NCBI GenBank assembly: GCA_023078555.1 | Contig: CM041198.1 | Location: 6,610,924 to 6,674,923 of the forward strand | Length of the DNA: 64,000 bases | Source of the DNA: Ulva prolifera | Taxonomy: Eukaryota; Chlorophyta; Ulvophyceae; Ulvales; Ulvaceae | Direction of reading: 5' to 3' | In this document: positions 1-64,000 of the stretch, one piece after another | Numbering within the stretch: position 1 is the stretch's first letter | Layout of the letters: every line of letters begins with the position of its first letter | Notes under the pieces: generated by a model | Seen by the model: only the letters and a program-made list of their open reading frames with translations | What the model was told of the DNA's origin: nothing | The model's database searches: none | Made by a program: the position numbers and the translations under genes

Positions 1-648
<648 letters not shown>

Positions 649-748
649 GGCTTGGTGTGTGGCTTGTTGTGTGGTGTGCGGTTCCCCTGGTTGCTGCTCG
701 CGGTGCTACCTGCCTTGTTGATGCGGATGAGATTCGGTTTCAGTGTTT

Positions 749-1554
749 GTTTTCTCCCGTTCACTCTTTTGTAACACCTTATTTTGTAACACCATCGTGG
801 ACAGGTCGCGCATCGCATTCTCCAAGAAGAGCCGGCGGGAGGCTGCGCCTGAACCTGCAGCAACGTCAGCAAGGCAGTTCAGGAAGGCGAATGCAGTCAG
901 GCCGATCCTCCCGTACGTCTCGTGAGAGAGCGGCACCAGGGTGAATGCGCCAGAGCCCGCCCGGCCATATTTGCCGCGCTTGCGCTGGTCGGACTTCGCC
1001 GTGGCGGCGCTGTCGTAGGTTGCCGCGGAGCGGACATTGGAGCCGGCAAGCGGGTGAGACACGCACACGTCGCCGATCACCGGCGAGCCGGGGAAGAACG
1101 CTGAACGTGAGAATGTCACCGCGCTGAGCGCCTCTGCGCGACCGGGGAGGAGGAGCCGAAGGGGCACTCCAGACGGTGCACCGTCTGGAGCGGTCGGCCA
1201 TGGCCGACCGCTGCGAACGCTACCCCCCTGCACACAGTGTGCGCATGTGCGCAGGGCCAGCTGGCCGTCCACAGAACTCTAGCAGGGGTCACATGTGATG
1301 TCGCAACGCTATACTTTCCTCAGTCGTGGCCCTTGTAGGTTCAGCAAATGTTAGCGCGCCAAATCTTCAATGTTGCTAGAGCGTGACAGCCTACTGAAAC
1401 TTCAAGTTGCCGGACGCGCGCGGGCGCGGACACCGGCAGCACAGAAGCATGGATCAAGCCGCTACACAGCGACTGCTACGCTGTGTGTGCTGCTGTTGGT
1501 TCGCTGACCGGCGGATGACATATACTATTAACAAAAGAGTGAACGGGAGAAAAC
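749..1554. repeat. 24-nt inverted repeat pair bounding an ~806-bp segment
   Basis: Bases 749-772 and 1531-1554 are exact reverse complements over 24 nt (left copy starts GTTTTCTCCCGTTC, right copy ends GAACGGGAGAAAAC). The segment between contains the retroelement coding remnant at about 785-1080. A related motif, about 60 nt long and beginning near a GATGAGATTCGGTTT core, occurs at 712-780 and again at 4863-4925, so the left arm belongs to a dispersed repeat family. No convincing target-site duplication is visible next to the arms. Confidence 0.6.
785..1080 (-). pseudogene. Retroelement C-terminal coding fragment (copy 1)
   Basis: On the minus strand this stretch encodes a segment with HPLAGSN, then a basic KRGKYGR run, then LVPLSHETYGRIG, then an Ala-rich helix with FLENAMRDLS. 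The order HPLA, a basic K-rich stretch, VP..ETYGR.G and a final AL.ELS-like motif matches what I know of the C-terminal tail of non-LTR-type reverse-transcriptase elements in algae and other protists. A second copy sits at about 11,500-11,836. There is no catalytic reverse-transcriptase domain nearby, so this is a truncated relic. The surrounding minus-strand ORF (706-1272) is longer than the recognisable homologous part. Confidence 0.6.
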
Positions 1555-3349
1555 TATTAATATTGATCATACCACCCTCGCTGCCGCCGCGGTGCACCAA
1601 CACGCCCCAAGCAAGTCATCGACTGCCTACGTGGACCTGACGCCTCAGCACAGCTATCTCGACATATGACTACGGCTAGAATGGAATGTGAGTTTATTAT
1701 GTGACCATCGGGAACCACAGGCCGGGGATTGCTGAGCAACAGCAACAGAGTAGCCAGCAGACGTGCATAGCGCATCCCCGGCCACCACAGAGCAGGGGTG
1801 AACCTGTAAACACCGCGTGAAAAAGGCGAGGGCGCGCCCGATGTGTTGCACTCGCAGCCGCAGCAGCTGCAGGTACGTACCTGCATGAATATGCATGCAG
1901 CTGGCAGCCGAAGACGACGACGCGGCTGCTGTGACGATGGGCTGCACAGCGGTAAACTTGCCGATAGTCAAGACGTGTGCCTGCAGCAGGACGGAACTGC
2001 ATACATTTCTGCCGCAGTCTTCAACGTCGGCCCAACTCATCGTCGACTACCACGAGCAGGTTTCTTTTGTTGTGTCTGTCTGTCCCGTTCACTCTTCTGT
2101 CACAGTGAGCAGCTGACCCTCCACGTGGTGATAGGCATATCTCCGAGATACGTGCTGTTGCGCCCGGGTCGTATCACACCAAGTCGTGTACGGCGTACAC
2201 TGTACGCCACGTAGCACTGCGCGCTGCTAGCGTTATAGTATTCGATCTGGTGCCTGATGTTCAAGCATCGCACCAGCAGCCACCTCCAGCTCAAACGAAT
2301 CGTGTTACCTTTCAGGTTCGCAAGATACAGCTATAGCGTAGCTACCTCTGCTGCAGCACGACCTTTCGCTGCTCCCAATTTTTATTTGCGGGAGCTGATC
2401 TGTGCTGTTCAGGCACACACATGGGCTCCGCCGTTAGTCAAAAGTTGATCGTGTGTCGCAGCAGGACCACACTGCAGGGCACCGTGTCCTTGCGCCGTGA
2501 TTTCAATCTTTTCACTCGTTCATTTCTTTCGAACGGAAGTTCCGTGTCGGCTGTTCACGCCTTGGAGTAGGACGTGTCTGCTGCTCTACAGATGCCAGGC
2601 ACAAGGTACCGAGGTCAACCACTCGGATGCGGTTGGACAGATGCTGCGTCCATCTGAAAAGCTGTTCGCGATATCAACTTAGCTGCAGTCATCAGTCCTG
2701 TTGGGATGGCGTCTCGGCTTTCGTCCAAGCGAAGAGCTGTTACCTAGCAGCTACGCCTCAGCCTCGATCGCGTGTCCGGAATCCAGAGCTGGAATGTGCA
2801 TTGCGGCACAGAACTCTTGCTCGAAGTTATCTGCAGGATGTGCCCAGTCCATGCGCAACCTTGATCTTACGCGCTGGTGTGTTCGAGGCAAGCTGAAGCA
2901 TCATTGTCCGCAGCCAGATCCGTGCTGTGTTTGCTTGGCAAAAACACTGATTCGAAAGAGCGCGTAGCTGGCGTAAGCCTGTGAGTAAGCATGCTGACCC
3001 TGGCGTCAATGCTTGACAATATGGTTTCGCAACTCACCAGAGCATGGCATCGTTGGGATCATCATGTACATGTTCTACGTAGTACATGTGGGGCCACCCT
3101 GGCAGAGCAACAAATTGCTGTATACATCCGCAATGCAAAAACGGTGTTAACACTGTTTACAAACGTTGACTGCCTACCGCCACCACCGGACGTGCGACAT
3201 GCGAGAGAGCGGCGCCTACAAGAGCTCACTGTTCTCCGGAATCCTGATATTCTTTCAACACGAATCACCTGAGCATCCCTGACTGCTTCCGGGGGTGCAA
3301 TGTATGCACACTGTTCGTGGGTGCACATGTCTGGGTCTGTCCTAGACCA

Positions 3350-3406
3350 GCTTGCTTCTTGCGCGGTGCTGCCCGCCTCGCCGCACTCCTCCTTGTAACA
3401 CACACT
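3350..3406 (-). repeat. Dispersed repeat family A, copy 1
   Basis: Contains GCGGTGCTGCCCGCCTCGCC followed by a C/T-rich run and TTGTAACACACAC. Its reverse complement aligns with the copies at 10,929-10,988 and 44,875-44,932 (GTGTGT, ACAAAG, then GCCGGAGGGGC, then GGTAGCAC). Orientation is assigned relative to the 10.9-kb copy. Confidence 0.6.
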
Positions 3407-3891
3407 GTTCGCACCCCGGACTGATGCTCATGCATGCTTACACACTCATGTCGGGCATTCCCAGTTTACACACGTCTATTACATTTTTCCTTTTTTTTTC
3501 GCTGCGTGTGTGACACGAAGCACATTTACATGCACAGTGCTTCTACGGATGCTGCCGCCGCACACGACAGGAGCAGCCCCCCGAGAGACACCGATGCGCC
3601 TGCTTCGCCTTATTTGCGCACCTACACCCAGTGGTGATAGCTTGTGCGTATCTACTCAAGCCGCACGGTCTGCAGCGAGGTGGCGATTGTGTGGTGCTGA
3701 CCGGGAACGAGGCGCGGCCAGGGACTCCGCGCGGCTCTTCAAATGACGATGTCATTGGTGTCAATGCGAGGTGGGGGGCCTTCCCCTGCCACTACCAAGG
3801 TGGAGCGTTGGTCACCTCTACACACAGCAAAGGTCCTGCGCCGAGGGTTCGTATGCATGTGCACTTGTGGCCATTGCATCTGTATGTGTGC

Positions 3892-3992
3892 AGTTACAAG
3901 GGACAGAGGCCAGGCAGCAAGCCGTTGCTCGAGCGTTCCGATCGGAATGCACTTGCAAATCCACTCATTCACCAGCTCCGTGCACGCCCACA
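3892..3992 (-). repeat. Dispersed repeat family B, copy 1
   Basis: GTTACAAGGGACAGAGGCCA and, about 55 bases on, AAATCCACTCATTCA are the reverse complement (with mismatches) of matching blocks at 43,760-43,870. The same order and spacing of blocks indicates a shared repeat rather than chance. Confidence 0.55.
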
Positions 3993-4191
3993 ACAGGCAA
4001 GTGCAATGCACATGAGCAACTACACAAGCGTCTTCACAATTAGAGAGACCCACAGGCATACAGCTTTGCAAGGAAGCAGCCAGTCATCAGCCACGCAGCC
4101 CATCGTCGCATCTGTGTGTATGCATGATTACATAGCCGTACAGTAGGCGCCAGCAGTGCCACAATTCGTACGGTCGCCTCAGAGGGGCTCC

Positions 4192-4265
4192 GCAGGTGGT
4201 GTACCCCTTCGGCATGTGTGGCCCCGTTCATTCGGAGTTCTTTATGGCCTCTTCAGGATGCGGCG
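4192..4265 (+). repeat. Dispersed repeat family C, copy 1
   Basis: CAGGTGGTGTACCCCTTCGG, then GTTCATTCGGAGTT, then CTTCAGGATGCGG. The same blocks in the same order recur at 15,702-15,765 and 38,958-39,026. Confidence 0.6.
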
Positions 4266-4691
4266 CAGTGTTTTCGGATATACTTCACGCTATGCTGCTT
4301 GACTCTGAGCTGATCAGCTGGCAATGCAGGCCATGGCCGGTGTGCATCGTGTCCAAAAAGTCAGAGCCGTGGCAGCTGTGCATTGGATGTGTAGTCACTG
4401 ATGGCATATGCATGCCTGCGGGGGCATGAGCCACACCATGTGTGGCGGTGCCGGTGTGCAAGCCTGAGGGTCTCGTTGCAAGGCATCAGTTCTGAACATC
4501 TGCATGGACTGATAGCTGCAATTCCGGGGTGCGGCGAACCTGTCCATGTGCTCTAGAGATCAAGATCTTGAGCAGCTCCTGCGGCGCCACCTGCTTCCCC
4601 GAAACGGCGCCCTGTGGCGCACACGCGTGCGCGCTGGCAGCGTGGCGAGTTCTGTTTGTATTGCGTGGGTGCCTGGGTGTGTATTTCATCT

Positions 4692-4748
4692 GCTTGCTTC
4701 GTTCGCGGTGCTGCCCGCCTCGCCACCATTCTTCTTGTAGCACACACA
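4692..4748 (-). repeat. Dispersed repeat family A, copy 2
   Basis: GCTTGCTTCGTTCGCGGTGC, GCCCGCCTCGCC and TTCTTGTAGCACACAC; close match to 3350-3406 and in the same orientation. Confidence 0.6.
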
Positions 4749-5264
4749 TGCTCCCATACACACTCTCACCATAGCGTCTGCTGGTCAACGATCCGCACCA
4801 GGCCGCACGGCGATCGCCGAATCCACTGCGCGCCATATAGTGTGATCGTGTGTGTATGTGTTGCTGTTGATTCGGATGAGATTCGGTTTTGGTGTTTGTC
4901 TTACCCCGTTGACTCTTTGTAATACCATACGTTCGAAGTTATGCATACTATATAGTATGTGGGTGGCTGTGGCAACAAGCTGCACAGAGAGAGCTAGCAC
5001 GGCGTGTTGCCGTGGGTGTACGTACGTAGACGCCACGCCGCTGTGACAAACCATTGGTTTAGCTGCCTCACCACTGGATTAACACAAATTTGTTTAAACG
5101 CTGAGCCTTTTGAGATGCCAACATTGCCGCAATATGGGCCACGTGTGGGCGGCCTATACTATAGCTACTCTCAGCTACTCAAGTCCTTTCCAATCAAACA
5201 CAAAAGTTGGTGACCAAAACAACCACTTCCGTCTCGGGCGTGGCGCTGTGTTCTGAGGGTGCAG

Positions 5265-5396
5265 GCCACGACGCGACCAAGCAGCGGCGACGACTCAGCG
5301 CTGGTGAGAATCGATCCGCTGACCTCCCTGGGCAATCTTGCGCGCGTGTTCCTCAACAAGCTGTCCGACGACAGCTGCAACGCGCGCAGGCGGTGA
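5265..5396 (+). CDS. Isolated exon of an unrecognised gene (partial)
   Basis: After a GTGCAG acceptor (ending 5264) the frame reads 43 residues with normal protein character, including SGDDSALVRIDPL, TSLGNLARVFLNK and LSDDSCNAR, then meets TGA at 5394-5396. A GTGAGG donor lies at 5393, so this may be an internal exon or the terminal one. I cannot place the upstream exon or a start codon. No family recognised. The codon usage (GC-rich third positions) resembles the confident exons further along the window, which is why it is kept. Confidence 0.33.
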   Translation, partial: ATTRPSSGDDSALVRIDPLTSLGNLARVFLNKLSDDSCNARRR

Positions 5397-5867
5397 GGAA
5401 GCTAAAGCGTGCCAAGCTTGCGAGGAGATCCAGGTAATGTTCCGCCAACCTTCTCTCGTACATGTCAGCAGTGCTGAACGCTGTGCGCGAAGTGATGATC
5501 GTGAGCTAGGCCTGCATGAACGCGGAACGACGTGTGCCCATCTAAATGTGATCGGCTGCGCGGTCAGGAGGCATGCGCATTGGCATCATTGCAATGGGCA
5601 GGTCTGGGCAGGCGGCATTGCGAGCGCACTGCGCTGAATCCGGGGCAGAATGTTCTTCTGTTGATGTGGGGATCTGTGTTGCGACGCTGCATAGATTGCG
5701 GCGTGTTTCGCGACAATTCGTGGCAGCCTGGTGGTGTCGTGAACTCTGACCGTGTTTCGGAAAAGGGAAATGCGCCCGAAACGGAACTTATGCACGGCTC
5801 AGTCTACATGCCACCTGTACCCACGGCATTCAGCATGGCGCCATTTAGGAGAGCCGCAACAAGAGCA

Positions 5868-5873
5868 TATAAG
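5868..5873 (+). promoter_or_regulatory. TATA-like motif upstream of the secreted-protein gene
   Basis: TATAAG, about 140 bases before the ATG at 6013. Position would allow a short 5' leader, but one six-base match is weak evidence. Confidence 0.2.
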
Positions 5874-6012
5874 ATAGTCATGGTGAAATGCAGCGTGGCA
5901 AAAATCCTTCGTAAGCATCGTGAGCCCTTTTCCGATTTATTCGACACTGTCACTGTGACACCCAGCTTTCGACAGCACACAATACTCGGCACCACACACG
6001 CAATCCTCTAAC

Positions 6013-7575
6013 ATGAAGATGATCCAGGCTATTTTCTCCGTGGTTCTGTTTGCCACTTCCGCGCTCGGCGCTCGTCACACTTCTGACACTGCGGAAGACA
6101 TCAGGTGCGAGGCTCGAACAGTTCGTTACATCCGGCTGGATTCCGTCAACATGTTAGCCTCAGCTTCATGTTTTTTACGCTGTCTGGTACTCAGCTATTC
6201 ACTACACTAATCAGGTAGGTGTTTCTTCAGTCACACCTCGTTTCGAAGTCTTGCGACGTGTCACACTGTCGACGCAAGTCTGCGCCATCGACGATGGTTA
6301 ATGTTTTAAGTATCACTTTCTGCAAACGTAAAGATGGTTAGGGATTCATCTTTTCGGCAGCGCCCGTCGTTGTCCTCGTCATCCTGACCATATGGAATTT
6401 CGAAATTTTCTCTGCGCGCTGGCACGTTGTGCACACTAGCCGTCGTTCCAATGGTGTATGAGTCGGCGTGAGAGACATCGAATTGCTGATACGAGAAATT
6501 GAGTTTCCAATTTCAGGCATCCGAGATCACTGACGACAACGTCTCATACGCATACGCGATTACATGGTATTCGGCACATGGTCCCACATGTTATGTTGTG
6601 TCAACTACACATCCATTTATGAAAAGATAATTTAATATTGTACACATCTCAACTTTTTTGCTCGTTCTTGTCGGTGCATGCGTGGTCGTCTGGCTCATCG
6701 GCTGGTTGGTGTGTGTTGGTGGTTCCTGCGCAACTCGATGCCGGTTAATGCTGTGTTAATGTGTGTGGATTGACGCGAATCCTTGCGATACAACGGCCCG
6801 AGCTCTGGTAACTTGTGATACCTCCCGGTACGTCACGCTTGTTTTGGCTAGGTGCGCCTCGTTCCCTCGACACCGATTGCGTTCGTCGCGCATGGCGATC
6901 ACTGATCGTTCATAGAGTGTTCGGCTTCGTGCATAAGGCGCACGCTAATAACAGGCAGTGTCTCAACTTACATCACCATATTGGCTATGGCAACTGCGAA
7001 TCGGTACGCAAGCGAAGACTGAATCAGTGATAGCGCCATCAATCAGCAACCCTCCAGTCCGCTAGACGGACCGCATGTGCGACACATCGCATTTTATTTT
7101 ATAGATATGTTGAAATCAAGAGAGCTTTCTGATATCTCTGATGCTTTGCAGTTGCATGGTTAGCTGCCCAAGCTGCTGCACGGACACCAGCTCGCTGTAC
7201 CACGGCAAGTGCCTCGATGAGGCTATCCGGCTTGTGGATTGCAGTGTCGTTGATGTGTCATCTAGTCTCCATCAGGACGGTGAAGCTGAACGTCAGATGT
7301 ACGTCACGACCTCTGCCACATCTCTCACGCGACACTTTGGCACACATCTCACTTCCGCTCGAGTTGCGAGTGCATGGCACTGTTCATTGCATATGTGATG
7401 TCGTCGTTGGATTTGTTGTGCACTTCCTGGTGCCGTGCCTGGTGCTGCCGCTTCCAGCTTTTATATTGGCGATAGGTTTGTTGTTGACTTTTGTCCAGGT
7501 ACACAATACCTGTCGCAATATGCCACCGACTGGAATGTCATCAGATATCTACAACTGTGTACCGTCTTTCACTAG
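6013..7575 (+). CDS. Predicted small secreted Cys-rich protein, three exons
   Basis: Exon 1 (6013-6104) starts MKMIQAIFSVVLFATSALGA, a textbook signal peptide, and ends in phase 2 before a GTGCGA donor. Exon 2 (7152-7279), after a TTTGCAG acceptor, joins in frame and gives a Cys-rich run (SCMVSCPSCCTDTSS, then GKCLDEAIRLVDCS). Exon 3 (7499-7575), after GTCCAG, continues in phase 1 with TQYLSQYATDWNVIRY and ends TVFH-stop. Total 98 residues, with at least seven cysteines in the mature part. Exons 1 and 2 are well supported by phase and character. Exon 3 is less sure, because another frame of the same exon also reads plausibly with two cysteines. A TATAAG motif lies at 5868-5873. I do not recognise the family; a secreted or wall-associated Cys-rich peptide is inference. 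Confidence 0.48.
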
Positions 7576-7599
7576 CCAGGTTATTTGGCATGTGTCACT

Positions 7600-7840
7600 A
7601 GCACCGGTTTCAGTTTCGTCAGCAGCGCGTGTTGTGCAGGGACGCCCAGACAGAAGCTGAAGTTGAGAGGGTTTTGAACAGGCATTCCTAGTGTGTTCTC
7701 GGGCTTCCAATATTCGCTGTCTTTCAATGTGCATATGCCTGTAGTCTCTGTAGATACTCTTTGTGTCACTCTGGTATGTGCTCCCAGTAGGTGTCAACAA
7801 AGATCATGTGTGCGTAACATACTGCATGTGTTTTTTTATC

Positions 7841-7887
<47 letters not shown>

Positions 7888-9650
7888 GTCCACTGATGAA
7901 CCTATAGCTGCTCACTTGGTTGTGTGCTTTTGAAGAATCTGAACTGACTTCTGCTTCCTTGGTGTGCAGATTTTCAAGACACACACCCATCATCATGAAT
8001 CGTGCCGAAGTGGGGTGTATAATAAGCTTCTGGATAATGACCTTAAGACTGGCGATACTGCGAAAGGCTGTAGACAACCTGTCATTGCTGCTGCCATAAT
8101 GGAGTCAAGGTCTACACAGACACTGGTCTTGTCTTTGTTGCGGATGTTTACTGAGCGTAGTGCTACGAATTGCTGGCTTGCATGGTCAAAACATGATTAT
8201 TTTTTGTATTTTTATTCAGGAACCCACAGCGGTACAGTATGTGATGTACACAGCACTCTATACCTCATAATCGCCACTCAGATATGTGGTGTTGCATCTC
8301 AGCTCCGTGTTCCTGGGGTCATTGCACTCTGTAAGAATGTGTGGCAATATGACATCCAATTCCTGTAGGAAACACCCGAACATGATTTGCTGCACGAAGT
8401 AGTGAGTGAACCAGCCAAATATGTTGGGTGCCTGTCCAGCTCAGTATTGATGACTCAATGTATTGAAGTCATAGTGATACGTCTGAGGATCTCTTAGAAC
8501 AAATTGCGGCAGATACGATCCCGATGAAGTATACCACTACAAATCTCTCACAGTGAATACACTAGTCTCAGGGTAATCTAGTTCAAATATCTCATGTGTA
8601 ACCACCTACGCCTGATGCCGTTTCGCTGCAGCTGCACTGTACCTCGTTATCTCGAGTACTGCAGCGCTGCGGGCTGCTGCCATTGTGGCACAGCTGACAC
8701 TGTTCTGAACACAATAGGTACATAAGGCAAGATGCCACAGTTTACCTACGGATTTCGACTCAGTATTCTAATCGTTATCTCGTGTAAACATTACTATCTA
8801 TCCTCAACGGCTTCAACGCCACTGCCACTCGACATAGTGCGAGCGGCACATATCACATAGTAAGTGATACTGTCGTCAAATTACACATGGCCGAATCGAT
8901 CTGTGACCATTTCGATGATGATATCTTCCAGTATGTGAAGGTGGACATCCCACCGGACGGGTACTTGTGTGCCCCCATGTTGACAATGATGGGGAACTGC
9001 ATCCAGGGAAGGTACATGACTATGCAACCCACGCACTGCACATGAGTATGCAAGAGTAGAACAGTGCGTAAGCCTAAGAACGTGAAGTAACCAGGTCGCC
9101 CGCAGACCTACGGGATTGGATACGTCCGCTGGGTGCTGCGGTCTGTGACACGGATCACGGGCTGTCAGCTCAGATCCACCTACACTAGCAGACCGGGAGC
9201 TCTGCCATGCAGCCACCCTGACCTCCCCCTGCCCTCCTGGACGCTGGGGGTACAATTTTTTGCTCCTGATTATGTGCCAGGCGCTGGAAACGGTGAGTCG
9301 AAGGCAGCGGTGGAGCAGTGTCTGTGGTGACATGGGTGTACCTGCATGCCTTCACCACAGTGGCCCTGCTACTGCTGCGCTGTATCCCACAAGGCTGACA
9401 AGCGACGTCAAAAATTCAAGTCAATGGTCTGTTCTTGTGATACTTGAACGGTCGAACGGAGGTTGTGCCCAGAGAGGTGCAGTACGTTCCTGGCGTGGCG
9501 CTGTAGCACACGATCGCCGTGGCTATGTGCACAATAGATTGGCTTAGCTTCACCTGTATAGACACCTGTCACCCTCGCGTTCGTGTCTCCGATTTCTCCC
9601 TTGAACCTGACGTTGGGGCGTCCTCTTTGCCGCACACCGACTAACACTTG
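7600..9650. other. Intergenic stretch, no supported gene
   Basis: Moderate to low GC with a short (GT)n tract at 7841-7885 and scattered short ORFs on both strands (for example 7964-8368 plus, 8881-9333 minus). None has domain-like character or splice-compatible neighbours. Confidence 0.5.
7841..7885. repeat. (GT)n microsatellite
   Basis: About 22 uninterrupted GT units. Confidence 0.95.
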
Positions 9651-12600
9651 ATGAAGGTCCTCGTCACGGGCGGCAGCGGCTACCTTGGCCAATTTGTCGT
9701 GCAGAAGCTCGCTTCAGATCATGAGGTGTGCAGCTTTGATGCTGGAACTCCGGATTGGGCGTGACCATCGAAGGGTCATCTGGTCATCTGGTCAACTGCG
9801 TCCATCTTGCGATCCGCTCCCTGGCTCCGCAGACATCATCACTGGGGCAACAGGCCCGAAAATGTAAGCCAACGTATGCGTGCAGGTGGTGTCAACATGG
9901 CAGTCAAACGCGCCCAAGACAGCTGGTCTGTCCAATTTGACGCATGTTCAATGTGACCTCGCGTCAGGTCCAGCGGCGCAGGAGCTCTTCGCCACGCACG
10001 GCCCGTTCGATGCTGTCGTGAACACTGCAGCGATATCTCAGCCAGGAGTGTGTCAGCAGGATCCGGGCCGGGCAAGGTGAGTTTCCTGCTGAAGGTGTGC
10101 CACAGGTGACGCTCCATGAAGCACGCTGCATCTCTGCAGAGGCCTGCTGTGCACAACTGTGGCAGCCACAAACGCGTCCACATAATCTGTCACCATGGCA
10201 TGTTGGGAAGATTCAGCGCCACCCCATGCCATCGCAGCGTAGCGTCCACCTGGCTGTGATGCAGACGGGCAAGCGTAGCACCATCTGCCCATGCAAACCC
10301 GCCACCACACATCATGCTCAGCATAGCCACTGTGTGTAATAGAGAGCGGCGAGCCCTGACAACTACCTCCAGGCACGACGAATCATCTCACATACCCCAT
10401 CCCGATGACAGACAGGTCCAATAGGATACGGCTCAGTAAATTTAGATTTACTTTTACTTTACAGAACACTGCTGCAGAGCTATCAACGTGCCGACGGCTA
10501 TCTTGGCAGCGCTGCGCAGCCAGCAGGAGAGGCATGGCGTGGAGGCCGTGCTGGTGCACGTCTCGACAGACCAAGTGTACGGCGGCAGCCGGCCGCTGTG
10601 GCGTGAGGGCGACGCCGCGGCGCCGGTCAACGCGTACGGTCAGAGCAAGGCCGACGCCGAGGCGGCCATCCGCGGCGCCTGGCCGCACCACATCATCCTG
10701 CGCAGCTCCATCATCTACGGCCCTCAGTCCCCGTCCCCCGTGCCACGGCCGCTGTTCGTGCAGTTTGTGGTGAGCCGCCCTCCGTGCTGCTGCGGGGGCC
10801 TTGTGTCCTGCCCTGACGCGTTGTGTGCCGCCCTCCGTGGTGCTGCGGGGGCCTTGTGCCCTGCCCTGGCGCGTTGTGTGCCACCCTCCGTGCTGCTGCG
10901 GGGGCCTTGTGTCCTGCCCTGGCGCGTTGTGTGTGTTACAAAGGAAAAAGCCGGAGGGGCAGGTAGCACCGCCAGGACCAAAAGGGAGAGCACAAGAAAC
11001 GCAATGCGCACGCAGCAGGAGAGCCACAGCCAACGCCAAGGCACAACAAGCACACACACACCCCCACGCTCCCACACACCGCCACACGAACCACACACTG
11101 ACACCCGACCCACGCACCCACGCACCCGCACGCGGCCCAGACCCAACCCCCAACACACACACCCACACGCCAACACGCAACACGACCCCGCCGCCCGCGG
11201 CAGCAGCAGCCCAATGCAGCGGCCTGGCCGGCGCCGGCCCCACACGGAAGCCGCCGGGGGCCCCCAGGACCCCCGCCCCAACGCCCCGACCAGGCCAGCC
11301 CCGGGCGCCGGAACAACACACACGGGGGCGCCCCCAGCCACGGACCCACCCGGAACGGGGCACGCCCAAGGCGCGCCGTGTTCGGGGGCCGGGGCACACG
11401 GCCGCGGCAGCACACGCCGCCTACCAGCGCGTCCGAGCCTCGGACGGCGCCCGGCCCGCGAGAGAGCGACGAGGACGCCGCGGGCGGCTCGCCGCTCAGG
11501 CCGGATGGCCAGTGAGCGGCGAGAGATCATCACATGGGACCGCAAGTCCCGTCAGTACCGCCTTGCCCGCGTGACGCGCCATCAGCGGGGCAGCGGCGTG
11601 AACCTGGCGTGCAACGGCGCGGCAGAGCGTCGTGGAGATGTCGCGCATCGCATTCTCCAGGAAGCGCCGCCGAGAGACCGCGCCCGCCCCTGCAGCCACA
11701 TCGGCGAGCCTGTTCAGGAATGCGAACGCCGCCGGGCCCACGCGCCCGTATGTTTCATGCGACAGCGGGACCAAGCTGAGCCCTCCGACTCCCGAGCGGC
11801 CGTACTTGTCGCGTTTCCGCCGGTCGGCGGCGTCCGCGTTGCCTGGCCGCACCACATCATCCTGCGCAGCTCCATCATCTACGGCCCTCAGTCCCCGTCC
11901 CCCGTGCCACGGCCGCTGTTCGTGCAGTTTGTGGTGAGCCGCCCTCCGTGCTGCTGCGGGGGCCTTGTGTCCTGCCCTGGCGCGTTGTGTGCCACCCTCC
12001 GTGGTGCTGCGGGGGCCTTGTGCCTTGCCCCGACCCGTTGTGCCGCGCCCTCCGTGGTGCTGCTGGGGCCTTGTGCCCTGCCCTGGCGCGTTGTGCGACA
12101 CCCTCCGTGCTGCTGCGGGGGCCTTGTGCCCTGCCCTGACGCGTTGTGCGCCACCCTCCCTGCTGCTGCGGCGGCCTTGTGTCCTGCCCTGGCGCGTTGT
12201 GCGCCGCCCTCCGTGGTGCTGCGGGGGCCTTGTGCCTTGCCCCGACCCGTTTTGCCGCGCCCTCCCTCGCGTGCCGCCCTCCGCAGGCTGCGCCGCTGCG
12301 CCGTATCTGCTCGATCTGACATGCCACCGTTTGGACCTGGGACCCGGCAGCAGTTGTCAGGGGTTGGTGGCAGGCACCGCTGTCGGCGCGCGGCCGCGCC
12401 CATACACAGCCCCAGCCCTTTCATCTCAGTGATACTTGAGCACCACAGCCCCGAAAGTGACCGGCCTCTGACGGTCGCCTGTACTCACGCAGCGCCGTTA
12501 CCTGCTCGCACCCCATCTCGCACCTTGGCACACACCCCCCCTCACCCCTACCCACCCTCCCCCCCTCCCTGCACCTCCACACAGAATATAAAGACACCCA

Positions 12601-59828: not shown

Positions 59829-60362
59829 AGTTGCTGATGAGTTGCTTTTTTCTGCGAGCAACCAAAATCAGCGAAGCCCTGGTATGAGTTCACGCCGGCA
59901 AGGGCACAGCTGATGACCGAGCCAATTCGGCATTACATGTACGCACTTGCGAGCCAGGTTCCGTGACAGGGTCAGATTGCTGATAAGTAAGTTCAGCCCG
60001 TGCTTCAAACACTGGTGGGTATCGAGGAATCCTTCGCTGGTACCAGAAGTGCCTTCAGCCACATGCACCGTCGTACTCAAGTATGTGCCACCGACGATCA
60101 GCACGACCGTGCAAAGCAAAGAGCCAGACAGTTCATGTGGGCAGCCCGCTAGCAGCACGCCCTTGCAATGCCGTCTACTTCGATAACGCGGACGCGGCGC
60201 CTGGGGCCGCGGATATAAGAGCCCCCAGCTGTCTCAGAGACTTGATATGCGATCCAATCCGATGCACTGCAAACTGAGATACGCTTGCTGATGATGCAGC
60301 CCACATTTCCGTCGAAATGTATGCAAAACCGGACTGGTGCGCGCTAAGCTTTCGCTGCACGC

Positions 60363-60728
60363 ATGGACCAGAGCATGATGACGAGCAGCGCTCTATCAAA
60401 CAGCGACGAGACCGACAGTGAATGGGTGATGGTCCATCGGTCAGACATTCAGACAGGCGACATTGTTGCGACGCTTGCTTTCGTGGTGTGTATTCTCCCG
60501 CCAATCAAAACTTCGTACAAGCTTCAGAGCAGATTAGACTGCTGCAGCGCGCTGGAGCGTGTACGCTGCATACTGCGCATTGCCATTACGTGCGCAGCCT
60601 CGAAGTTTGAGAGTCAATATGGCGGTATACTTGCGCTTCAGCACCAAATCGATGGAGCAGCTGCATCAAGCTGGCATCTGCTTCGCGCATCGAGGCCTTG
60701 CGCTGACCGCAGCGTCCGCCTAATGTAG
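60363..60728 (+). CDS. Possible first exon of an orphan gene divergent from the 56.5-59.8-kb gene
   Basis: The ATG at 60,363 opens MDQSMMTSSALSNSDETDSE, WVMVHRSDIQTGDIVAT, acidic and Ser-rich like many N-termini, then less convincing sequence to a stop at 60,728. It may be a first exon that splices before the frame loses character. The start is about 540 bp from the start of the minus-strand gene, so the two could share a bidirectional promoter. Confidence 0.28.
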   Translation: MDQSMMTSSALSNSDETDSEWVMVHRSDIQTGDIVATLAFVVCILPPIKTSYKLQSRLDCCSALERVRCILRIAITCAASKFESQYGGILALQHQIDGAAASSWHLLRASRPCADRSVRLM

Positions 60729-61333
60729 CTCACATGTGATATCACATGGACTTTCCGAAGTAAGTTCACACCGGCGGCGTGTGCATATGCTGTTGGTTCG
60801 CTCGCCCTCTCTGCAGGCAGGGCATGAGTGCAAGCTGAAGCAGTTCTGCAGCTGCGCGCTGACGGGGTCCCGCAGGGCAAGCTCGAGGTCTGAGCACTTT
60901 GAAATCATGAGGACGTGGATCTTCGCATCGATGGGTCGAAGCACGCAGGCTTACCCGCCATGCGGGCTTGGTCCTGGGATCTACGACGCGCGGCAGCCCG
61001 CTTTGGACCACGTCCACAGATAGCAATGGCTGCAGCGTTCGCTTTGCGGTGCATTGTTGGCAACGTGGCCAGTAGAGGTATTAGCACAACTTGAGAACGA
61101 CGCGACGCTGTGGCCACGCGCGGCACCGTGTCTGCGTCGTGCCTTGTGACCGCGTCACACTGCGGTCCTTAGGTCGAACAAAATTACGCACACGATCACA
61201 CATGGCAGCATAGCGCGCGGGTAATTGTTTCTCGCTGCCACGCAGTCATACCGGATACGTCACAGTATTTAGGACGCAGCCTTCGGCGGTCGAAATTCGT
61301 GCCATATGGCACAATTAATTCCGCGCGCCGTGG

Positions 61334-61385
61334 GTGTGTGATACAAAAACAAAGCCGGAGAGGGCGGCAGCACCACCAGTGCAAC
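61334..61385 (+). repeat. Dispersed repeat family A, copy 6
   Basis: GTGTGTGATACAAAAACAAA, GCCGGAGAGGGCGGCAGCAC and CACCAGTGCAAC; a diverged copy in the same orientation as 10,929-10,988. Confidence 0.55.
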
Positions 61386-61549
61386 GAATAAGCACGCCGG
61401 CGCCACCAGGATCGGGTGTGTACCAGGTGGAGGCCGCGGGTAGTGGCAACAGGCTGCTGTGTCCGGGATCACCGGGGCGCGGTGGCATGCATATGCGTGT
61501 TATATATATTCACGTGCACGTGCCACGTGGGGCGCCCATGCAGCGCTGC

Positions 61550-61557
61550 GTCTCCAG
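61550..61557 (+). repeat. 8-bp target-site duplication, left copy
   Basis: GTCTCCAG, identical to 62,818-62,825 and fitting the nTnnnnAn pattern preferred by hAT transposons. Confidence 0.9.
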
Positions 61558-61791
61558 TAGAGCTGTAAATTTAACTTTTGGAAGCACGGTTTAACGTTAA
61601 TTAACAAAGCTAAAGTAAAATAAAAGTAAAATACGGTCAAAAAGCTTTACTTTAAACGTGTTTTAAAATGGTGCTTTGCCACTTTACCATTAAAGTTGTT
61701 AAATACGTCGAAGAGGCATTTGCTGCCAATTGCACGGCATAAACACGGCACAGACATGTCCACAACCACCTACATGCATCTATTGCACGAC

Positions 61792-62520
61792 CTACCAACT
61801 ATCTGCATCGCCTGAACAACTTGACGACGATGGAGATGCTCCTAGGCTGTCAGAATCTGGGTCACATGCAACGGAACCCATGTTCTGCATCACCAACTCC
61901 TCCTCATCCACTTCATCGACAAATTCGAGCAGACTGTCGAAGCGTGGAGCTTCAACAACAGCACCATCATGTTCGTTCAGAAGTCCTCCTGAACGAACAT
62001 GATGGTGCTGTTGTTGAAGCTCCACGCTTCGACAGTCTGCTCGAATTTGTCGATGGAGGTGCACGTTCATCTTGGCGTACACTGTCATTGCAAGCGTCTT
62101 GTTCTTCATTGACCTTCGCTTGGCAGTCAAGTTGTCTCCAAATGAGTTCCACAGCCTCTCGACAGCTGTTGAGGAGGGCTTCGCAGACATCACTCTGATT
62201 GCAGCCTCTCTCAACAAACACTTTTCTGGGACTTGATGCATCCAAAAGGCGACAGGCGGCTCACCATCTACCCCAACCTGCTGCAATTTGCGGCTATCTA
62301 TGTGCAAGTGCTTCAGAGTCTTAGTCTCATGCACACCAAGAAATGCTGTGAGAGCTCCCGACAGGAGAGCAGCCTTGATATCAGTGAGGGAAAGTGACAT
62401 GTTGCTTTCACGGCGTTGTTGAACAACAGTGTGCTTGTCTTTTGTCATGTCTAGAACTTGCAGCTGCCAATTCAAACTGAGGTCTAGAGTTCCTGGTTCT
62501 TCAAGCATGAGCAAGCGCAC
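61792..62520 (-). CDS. Truncated hAT transposase, C-terminal dimerisation region
   Basis: 242 residues from ATG at 62,520. The diagnostic part is PSSTAVERLWNSFGDNLTAK followed by RRSMKNKTLAMTVYAKMNV, the conserved block of the hAT C-terminal (dimerisation) domain. The N-terminal BED zinc finger and the catalytic DDE core of an autonomous transposase are absent, so no catalytic activity is expected. The C-terminal part runs through both arms of a 67-nt inverted duplication (residues RADCRSVELQQQHHHVRS, then NEHDGAVVEAPRFDSLLEF), then an acidic Ser-rich tail ending SSSSCSGDADSW. It may make a protein that could still bind full-length transposase, or be inert. Confidence 0.8.
   Translation of the reverse strand: MRLLMLEEPGTLDLSLNWQLQVLDMTKDKHTVVQQRRESNMSLSLTDIKAALLSGALTAFLGVHETKTLKHLHIDSRKLQQVGVDGEPPVAFWMHQVPEKCLLREAAIRVMSAKPSSTAVERLWNSFGDNLTAKRRSMKNKTLAMTVYAKMNVHLHRQIRADCRSVELQQQHHHVRSGGLLNEHDGAVVEAPRFDSLLEFVDEVDEEELVMQNMGSVACDPDSDSLGASPSSSSCSGDADSW
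61914..62055. repeat. 67-nt perfect hairpin inside the hAT coding region
   Basis: Arms 61,914-61,980 and 61,989-62,055 are exact reverse complements around an 8-nt loop (AAGTCCTC). Both arms are in the transposase reading frame. Confidence 0.93.
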
Positions 62521-62574
62521 AGCGGCACAGATAAGTACTAGGAGCCAACAGTAGGTGACTAGCTGTGACTGAGC

Positions 62575-62583
62575 TTTATATAA
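62575..62583 (-). promoter_or_regulatory. TATA box-like motif upstream of hAT ORF
   Basis: TTATATAAA on the minus strand, about 55 bases before the ATG at 62,520 and inside the element. Confidence 0.45.
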
Positions 62584-62817
62584 CGTGCTTTGCTAGAGTT
62601 GTTTGTCCTATGAGGATGGTCAAAGTCATCTACATACAGCCCTTTTGGGCTGCCATTTTAGCTTTAAAGCCCGGTTAAAATTAAAAAAGTGTTAAAGTAA
62701 AATAAAAGTAAAAATACCCCCTTTAACGCCACTCACGCGTTTTAACGCTAAAATAGTTAACTAAAATAGCTTGTTAAAATTGATTAAAATGGGATTAAAA
62801 TTAAATTTACAGCTCTA

Positions 62818-62825
62818 GTCTCCAG
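62818..62825 (+). repeat. 8-bp target-site duplication, right copy
   Basis: GTCTCCAG, identical to 61,550-61,557. Confidence 0.9.
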
Positions 62826-64000
62826 TCGGTTCGAATCACATTAGCTGTCCATGCGTCGACTACAAGAACGACTTGACCCGAGACTCACACCCGAGGCGCG
62901 ATTTGAGGGGGTGTATCTCGGGTGCGCGCGGCCGAATGAGTGTCACGCGGACAGAGTCTGTGGAAAGCTTTTTGCTTCGGAGATCGCGATGGAGTCTTCC
63001 AATACGTCCTGGAAGACGGTTTGCGTGCGCTGGTCTGTTCCTGGAGATGCATGTCGGGCTCTCTGGTCGGTTGTTTGTGCGTGCATGAGCTACAGGTAGA
63101 CGGCTGGTTAGCGTATTTCACTGCTGTTGTCGTGTCAGATGACACCGAAGCGATACATTGGAACAATCGGTCGCGTAGGGGTAATTACGAGGCCATTCGA
63201 CGTCCGCCTGTGTTGAACTCTACGCTGCAGCATGCCAGATGTGCTAGGTCTGCATCTCGTATTGCTACGATCGGACGGGTACAGGCGGTCAAATATCAAG
63301 TAGAACGTATGTCAAATCGCTGGAGCGTGTATTCGTTGCGAATGGTCCCGGTATCCGTGCCTGGCGTGCAGTGAGGACTTGCGATGCTGAGGTGCGAGTA
63401 TTGTCCCCGGGTGTCTGCAGACCCGGTGCTGGGTAAGGTGAGTCACCAAAAGTATAACATATGCATTCGAGTGCTGCTCGCTGTGGTCGGTTGGCCTGTC
63501 TTCGTCGCATGTTGTGATACCGTCGTCGGTTGACTTGGAGAGTAGGTGCGTATGCCCGGCTGTTCGAGCGCGCATACCGTATCTTGAACACGCTTCTTGA
63601 AGCTGTAGCTATATACTGCAATACTGCATTCCGATGTGTGCAGTATCGCCCAGTCGACGGCGGTCTGGTCTTCTTCGTGCCGTACACTCTGCGTCGCTGT
63701 TCTCGCTGTGAGAGACCGCTTGGTCGCTGCCGACGCCTCCCCATGCCCGACTTGTCACGCCAATGTCAACATTGTATTGTCAGAGAACTTCACTGACTCA
63801 ATCGACTACTTTAGCGCTTGCGTTGCCCCGATCCCGTGTACCCGCGACTCGCTGTATCGGCCGCGTCAAAGAGAAGTCCGGATGTAGTTGAGGGTGTAGC
63901 GTGTACCGGGTGACATTTGGCAAGCCGCATGCAGCGCGAATACGCTTGTATATTGCATATCATGACACATACTTTACATTACAATGCTTTCACATGCTCC
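62826..64000. other. Right end of window, no supported gene
   Basis: Plus-strand frames at 62,851-63,099 and 62,940-63,374 are open and overlap, with some protein-like stretches (GDRDGVFQYVLEDGLRALV), but no motif or solved splice pattern. A gene entering from the right side of the window is possible. Confidence 0.4.

Follow-up and report, generated by a model that had tools for sequence, protein, structure and literature searches.

The locus examined here raises the question of whether a short repeat-bounded segment in a 64,000-nt stretch of Ulva prolifera DNA (hereafter the window) is a complete transposon and, if so, how its kind came to spread through the genome. The original prediction had placed a 1,260-bp element at positions 61558–62817, and both this length and these coordinates proved exact. 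The left terminal inverted repeat (TIR), TAGAGCTGTAAATTTAA, occupies 61558–61574 on the plus strand, and its perfect 17-mer partner lies at 62801–62817 on the minus strand: the two matched at all 17 positions, as had been claimed, and at 20 of 21 when the comparison was lengthened. The same 8 bp, GTCTCCAG, border the element at 61550–61557 on the left and at 62818–62825 on the right, and form the exact target site duplication (TSD) that had been proposed. An 8-bp TSD and short TIRs of 10–25 bp are given as features of the hAT superfamily (PMC3942097), and the 17-bp repeats fall within this range. The TIR of the window element starts with TAGAG and that of a sibling group, described below, with TAGGG; for comparison, the Ac/Ds TIR is C/TAGGGATGAAA (PMC3260210).

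In the host assembly (88.9 Mb, 44 contigs) the first plastocyanin exon agreed with PDB 7pcy at all 45 aligned residues, 1iuz coming second, and a 56-aa exon of nuclear RbcS had its best matches among chloroplast small subunits. The 7pcy protein is from Enteromorpha prolifera, a name that leads to Ulva prolifera (taxid 3117), and 1iuz is from Ulva pertusa, so that the source is probably U. prolifera or a very near sister species. A search of this whole assembly with the 17-bp TIR at no more than one mismatch returned 112 sites, 52 forward and 60 reverse, while the same repeat read backward, used as a control, returned none in either orientation. The recurrence of the TIR is thus far above chance. 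The ends of the element are AT-rich, with 29% GC in the left subterminal block (61558–61707) and 31% GC in the right one (62618–62817). The hexamer TTTAAC/GTTAAA, which was picked after inspection of the sequence, occurs three times in the left and five times in the right block (61570–61703 and 62674–62778) against none in the 910-bp middle; 2,000 single-base shuffles gave a mean of 0.53, and the observed number of eight was reached by none of them. These hexamers are possibly transposase-binding repeats. A sequence of about 35 bp in the right flank, starting at the end of the TSD (62823–62857), has 26 other matches in the genome and forms an array at C1:11878944-11904297 with a spacing of 4.5–6 kb. 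Neither a tRNA search of 60000–64000 nor an Rfam family search of the window called any gene or family.

Further copies with other target duplications had been anticipated, and they were found. With a 1,301-bp query and the best 40 of 91 candidates scored, so that the copy counts are lower bounds, at least 12 full-length copies were recovered, including that of the window, at 98–100% identity. Nine of them have exact and mutually different TSDs, one matches at 7 of 8 positions (L016) and two are unmatched (L012 and L020). Segmental duplication was ruled out as the source of the copy number, because flanks and TSDs differ between the copies. The 12 copies fall into sharp subgroups: L009 and L010 are identical over 1,260 bp at separate sites 138 kb apart, L011 and L018 differ by one substitution, six copies (L012, L013, L014, L015, L017 and L020) by 0–5 and the pair L016 and L019 by 18, and the subgroups are separated from one another by 14–34 substitutions. 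The identical pair indicates that the element moved recently, and the subgroup pattern is what several recent rounds of transposition from a few sources would leave. When the two flanks of the window copy were put together and compared with the genome, no full uninterrupted match corresponding to a complete empty site was found. Two partial matches, C3:9896864-9896915 (52 bases over the joint at 90%, with just 12 of them left of the TSD) and C5:2011119-2011163 (just 5 bases left of the TSD), are suggestive of empty sites at most.

The two copies with unmatched TSDs are located on contig C2, 65 kb apart (right junction of L020 and right flank of L012 at C2:10927803 and C2:10992635). The intact right end of L012 is followed by GTGGAGCC, an octamer found also at the left end of L020, and then by 46 bp beginning with TGGAGCC in common with the right flank of L020, after which the two sequences diverge. 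The right junction of L020 reads CTCT-CCAC-TGGAGCC, a small palindrome, and the last base of the element is lost. Small palindromes of this kind are left behind by hAT excision. The junction of L020 looks like an aborted excision footprint, and L012 would be an ectopic gap-repair copy made before that junction was damaged.

For the wider family, element bounds consisting of a TIR at each end, 0.7–2.5 kb apart, were sought in 40 loci (L009–L048), a range in which a long copy could not appear. Bounds were obtained for 36 of them (all except L022, L023, L026 and L042), comprising the 12 copies described above and 24 relatives. Among these 36 elements, 30 have exact TSDs, two match at 7 of 8 positions and four have no match (L012 and L020 together with the relatives L031 and L046). 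Ac-type hAT elements prefer targets of the form nTnnnnAn. The original prediction had assigned this form to the TSD, and it stood as a preference (of the 30 exact TSDs, 19 have T at position 2 and 22 have A at position 7), not as an invariant rule, C being found at position 2 in nine and G at position 7 in five. The sibling group consists of 21 bounded elements within L027–L048, mostly with TAGGG ends, which share about 73–85% identity with the window element in the common parts; 19 of them are 1.12–1.15 kb long and the other two 1.27 and 1.59 kb. Five members with TAGGGCTGTAAATTTAA ends (L031–L035, at C6:3666656, C10:1850770, C8:1666815, C2:11840331 and C6:8111746) are identical over 1,140 bp, and four of the five have exact, different TSDs. 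They represent a very young burst alongside that of the window element, and a transposase acting on such ends must therefore have been active recently.

One relative, L025 on contig C5 (1,903 bp, exact TSD), retains 702 bp more of internal sequence, which was found whole in no other of the best 40 of 46 candidates, the others having at most its last quarter. A third group of short copies (C2:5150517, C2:8962010, C5:852034, C5:6715461 and C9:645672) has only the N-terminal transposase segment in common, at about 50% identity, and some of its members adjoin TAGGG ends. MITEs are defined as short elements of high copy number and no coding capacity (PMC3942097). The present family includes the 12 or more near-identical copies and the 112 TIR sites, and most of its elements are 1.1–1.3 kb long with coding remnants.

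The coding remnant of the window element is a 266-codon stop-to-stop frame on the minus strand (61792–62592), in which the transposase C-terminal (dimerisation) region, at 62056–62418, follows a remnant N-terminal segment. The surviving hAT C-terminal domain of the original prediction proved weaker than claimed: the match to PF05699 had E = 0.0064 and 16.7 bits, below the cut-off of 21.4. The region is 37–38% identical to the C-termini of three larger transposase-like genes of the same genome (L085, L086 and L087), with 19 invariant columns in the alignment of the four proteins. The frame of L025 was likewise below the curated cut-off (E = 0.018), L085 matched at E = 0.2, and neither L086 nor L087 had a match at E ≤ 1 in its C-terminal frame. 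The family name hAT is based on the TIR, the TSD and weak protein evidence. The statement that the element codes only for the dimerisation domain had, in addition, overlooked a 73-bp inverted duplication that interrupts the end of the frame.

This inverted duplication, at 61911–62058, is made of transposase C-terminal coding sequence and consists of one arm at 61911–61983 on the plus strand and another at 61986–62058 on the minus strand, complementary at 71 of 73 positions and separated by a 2-nt spacer. A single arm, corresponding to the first, is present in the hairpin-less L021, L022, L024 and L025, so the first arm is the ancestral and the second the added copy; the latter was found in all 12 copies of the subfamily and in none of the 24 bounded relatives. 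The stem folds as RNA at -139.8 kcal/mol against a mean of -45.4 for shuffled sequences (z = -22), and none of 200 shuffles was as low. In eight of the 12 copies the arms differ only at the same two positions, close to their ends; two copies have three mismatches and two (L011 and L018) have seven of 73, which indicates that the stem of the founder was nearly perfect. Variable sites are as frequent in the arms (6 of 146) as among the other positions of the element (52 of 1,114), with Fisher p = 1.0 over the 12 copies, and compensatory change between the arms was seen in none of the 12. A coevolving hairpin was rejected, since the arms vary like the rest and do not compensate: the hairpin dates from just before the bursts and has drifted from then on with the remainder of the element. 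Its simplest origin would be a repair event, by foldback or template switching, while a gap was being filled. It was not needed for a burst, because the five identical copies L031–L035 do not have it. Most likely the hairpin is a passenger repair scar, and any function is putative.

Autonomous hAT elements encode BED and RNase H-like domains. Their length is given as 2.5–5 kb (PMC3942097). A longer copy of this family with BED and DDE domains had been expected, and none was found among the matches listed. A genome search with PF05699 gave 16 matches, all distant (the best tblastn E value of the window C-terminus against them was 0.013), and no autonomous copy. Nor was there one among the matches listed for the C-terminal protein (75) or the N-terminal segment (98), nor in the best 40 of 46 candidates obtained with the internal segment of L025 as a probe. 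When the TIRs were paired, using 100 of the 112 sites, 80 sites formed 40 pairs, of which 39 span 942–1,776 bp. The remaining pair, L022 (C6:6153959-6164201), spans 10,243 bp, and it was rejected as a long autonomous copy because its length is owed to nested Copia-type retroelement sequence. In this hairpin-less relative an insert of about 9 kb, at approximately 600–9810 of the element (C6:6154606-6163810), has Copia-type gag-pol frames by eye, and its several direct and inverted repeats suggest that it is probably more than one nested element. L026 was also set aside as a long copy, only its left end lying in the stretch examined. Twenty of the 100 sites had no partner within 20 kb at no more than one mismatch, and several single sites, for example in L025, L039, L043 and L045, have another end that is more diverged. 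At L085–L087 (4.6–6.2 kb each) no paired TIRs were found, with a single site at no more than four mismatches, in L085.

The identical copies point to a recently active transposase, the gene of which may have escaped the matches listed, be missing from the assembly, or have been lost or diverged. The reading in which a full-length autonomous copy is present in the strain, but was missed, lies outside the assembly or has diverged ends, with the short copies as its Ds-like satellites, refines rather than opposes the explanation preferred below, and is regarded as possible without being expected. Recent movement requires a transposase, and such a copy could lie among the unpaired sites, the 12 TIR sites not listed or the candidates beyond the best 40 of 91, or be longer than the 0.7–2.5 kb taken in by the bounding; against it stand the narrow size range of 39 of the 40 pairs, the splitting of the only long one by a nested element, and the finding of the internal segment of L025 as a whole in that locus only, among the candidates scored.

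A more far-reaching reading would make the element a mobile self-silencer: its transcripts would form the 73-bp double-stranded stem, and dicing of this stem by the host would yield small RNAs directed at the C-terminal transposase region of the family itself, as Mu killer is proposed to act on MuDR in maize. The foldback in each copy would thereby shut down the autonomous partner, and the element would be a mobile version of that locus. Self-silencing, if true, would explain why the autonomous copy is missing while the hairpin carriers persist. The near-perfect and stable stem common to all 12 copies agrees with this, as do its transposase-coding origin, the 21-mers that it has in common with L021 (27 of 53), L022 (7 of 53) and L024 (7 of 53), and the precedent of Mu killer itself (PMC3440606). 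In the genome, two loci also match a Piwi domain and one match to an RNase III domain was found, so that small-RNA machinery is likely to be present in the host. However, the arms are neither conserved nor compensated, down to the seven mismatches in the L011 and L018 subgroup; no 21-mer of the stem is in common with L025, L026, L027–L048 (22 loci), L049–L064 or L085–L087; and the hairpin carriers have themselves multiplied recently. The silencer reading is made less probable still by the hairpin-less siblings, which burst as well, and we consider it quite unlikely. The original prediction had offered another alternative, in which the element is the source of a dominant-negative transposase fragment with the dimerisation region. 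An open frame persists at 266 aa in two of the 12 copies, at 235 aa in two and at 204 aa in two, but in the other six, the largest young subgroup, a 4-bp deletion breaks it; the domain match also falls short of the Pfam cut-off, and the C-terminus of the frame runs into the hairpin. From the frame lengths and the breakage in half of the copies, a selected dominant-negative protein is unlikely, and this alternative is given hardly any credence.

The explanation preferred over these is that the window holds a non-autonomous hAT transposon, what is left of a larger hAT element after internal deletion and rearrangement, and that it is cut and pasted in trans; this we hold with high confidence. In this part the original prediction of a deletion derivative moving in trans was supported by the near-identical copies at different targets and by L025, which keeps more of the gene. 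The explanation is carried by the ends, the TSDs, the 12 copies with their sharp subgroups and identical pair, and the short relatives. The order of events would have been an internal deletion of a larger hAT element, followed in a single founder by the foldback event that duplicated 73 bp in inverted orientation, and then the bursts of this hairpin-bearing founder. We infer both that the transposase acts in trans and what it is: it would be a hAT enzyme that recognises TIRs of the TAGAG/TAGGG type and, probably, the repeats of the subterminal blocks as well. Against this explanation count the failure to find an autonomous copy with these TIRs among the matches listed, which leaves the moving enzyme to be deduced from its effects; a protein-level assignment to hAT that stays below the Pfam curated cut-offs in each scan; and the four unmatched TSDs (L012, L020, L031 and L046) together with the lack of a complete empty site.

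Among known systems, the closest are the Ds elements of maize, in particular the Ds-del class of internal deletions of Ac (PMC3260210), which are alike in the hAT ends, the 8-bp TSD, the internal deletion and movement in trans. The present element, with several copies at independent TSDs and an internal deletion relative to a longer relative, is Ds-like in this sense, but it differs in its 17-bp TIRs, in having no autonomous partner among the matches listed and in the single 73-bp inverted duplication common to the amplified subfamily; the words "hairpin" and "inverted duplication" have no occurrence in the main text of PMC3260210. The hAT MITEs described from Brassica and Drosophila (PMC7385995, PMC3517528) are likewise non-autonomous, multi-copy and provided with hAT ends; the element described here is set apart from them, by description, through its length of 1.26 kb and the transposase coding sequence that can still be recognised in it. 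In Mu killer (PMC3440606), too, a portion of a transposase gene is duplicated in inverted orientation and, on paper, the present hairpin could give a hairpin RNA as well. Mu killer, however, occupies a single locus, its proposed hairpin RNA is about 4 kb long and its silencing has been measured; the present stem is of 73 bp and lies inside a mobile element at 12 or more places, and any silencing by it is putative. The element is thus ordinary for its kind except for the hairpin in the recently spread copies.

No hAT or MITE family from Ulva was named in the titles and abstract openings of the open-access papers listed. With the present locus, hAT elements that moved recently are described from a green alga, probably Ulva prolifera, as a family with well-defined bounds. 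Should the hairpin be transcribed, the family would allow a direct test of the ability of a transposon to spread the trigger of its own silencing; otherwise it would illustrate well how a repair scar can hitch-hike on a burst.
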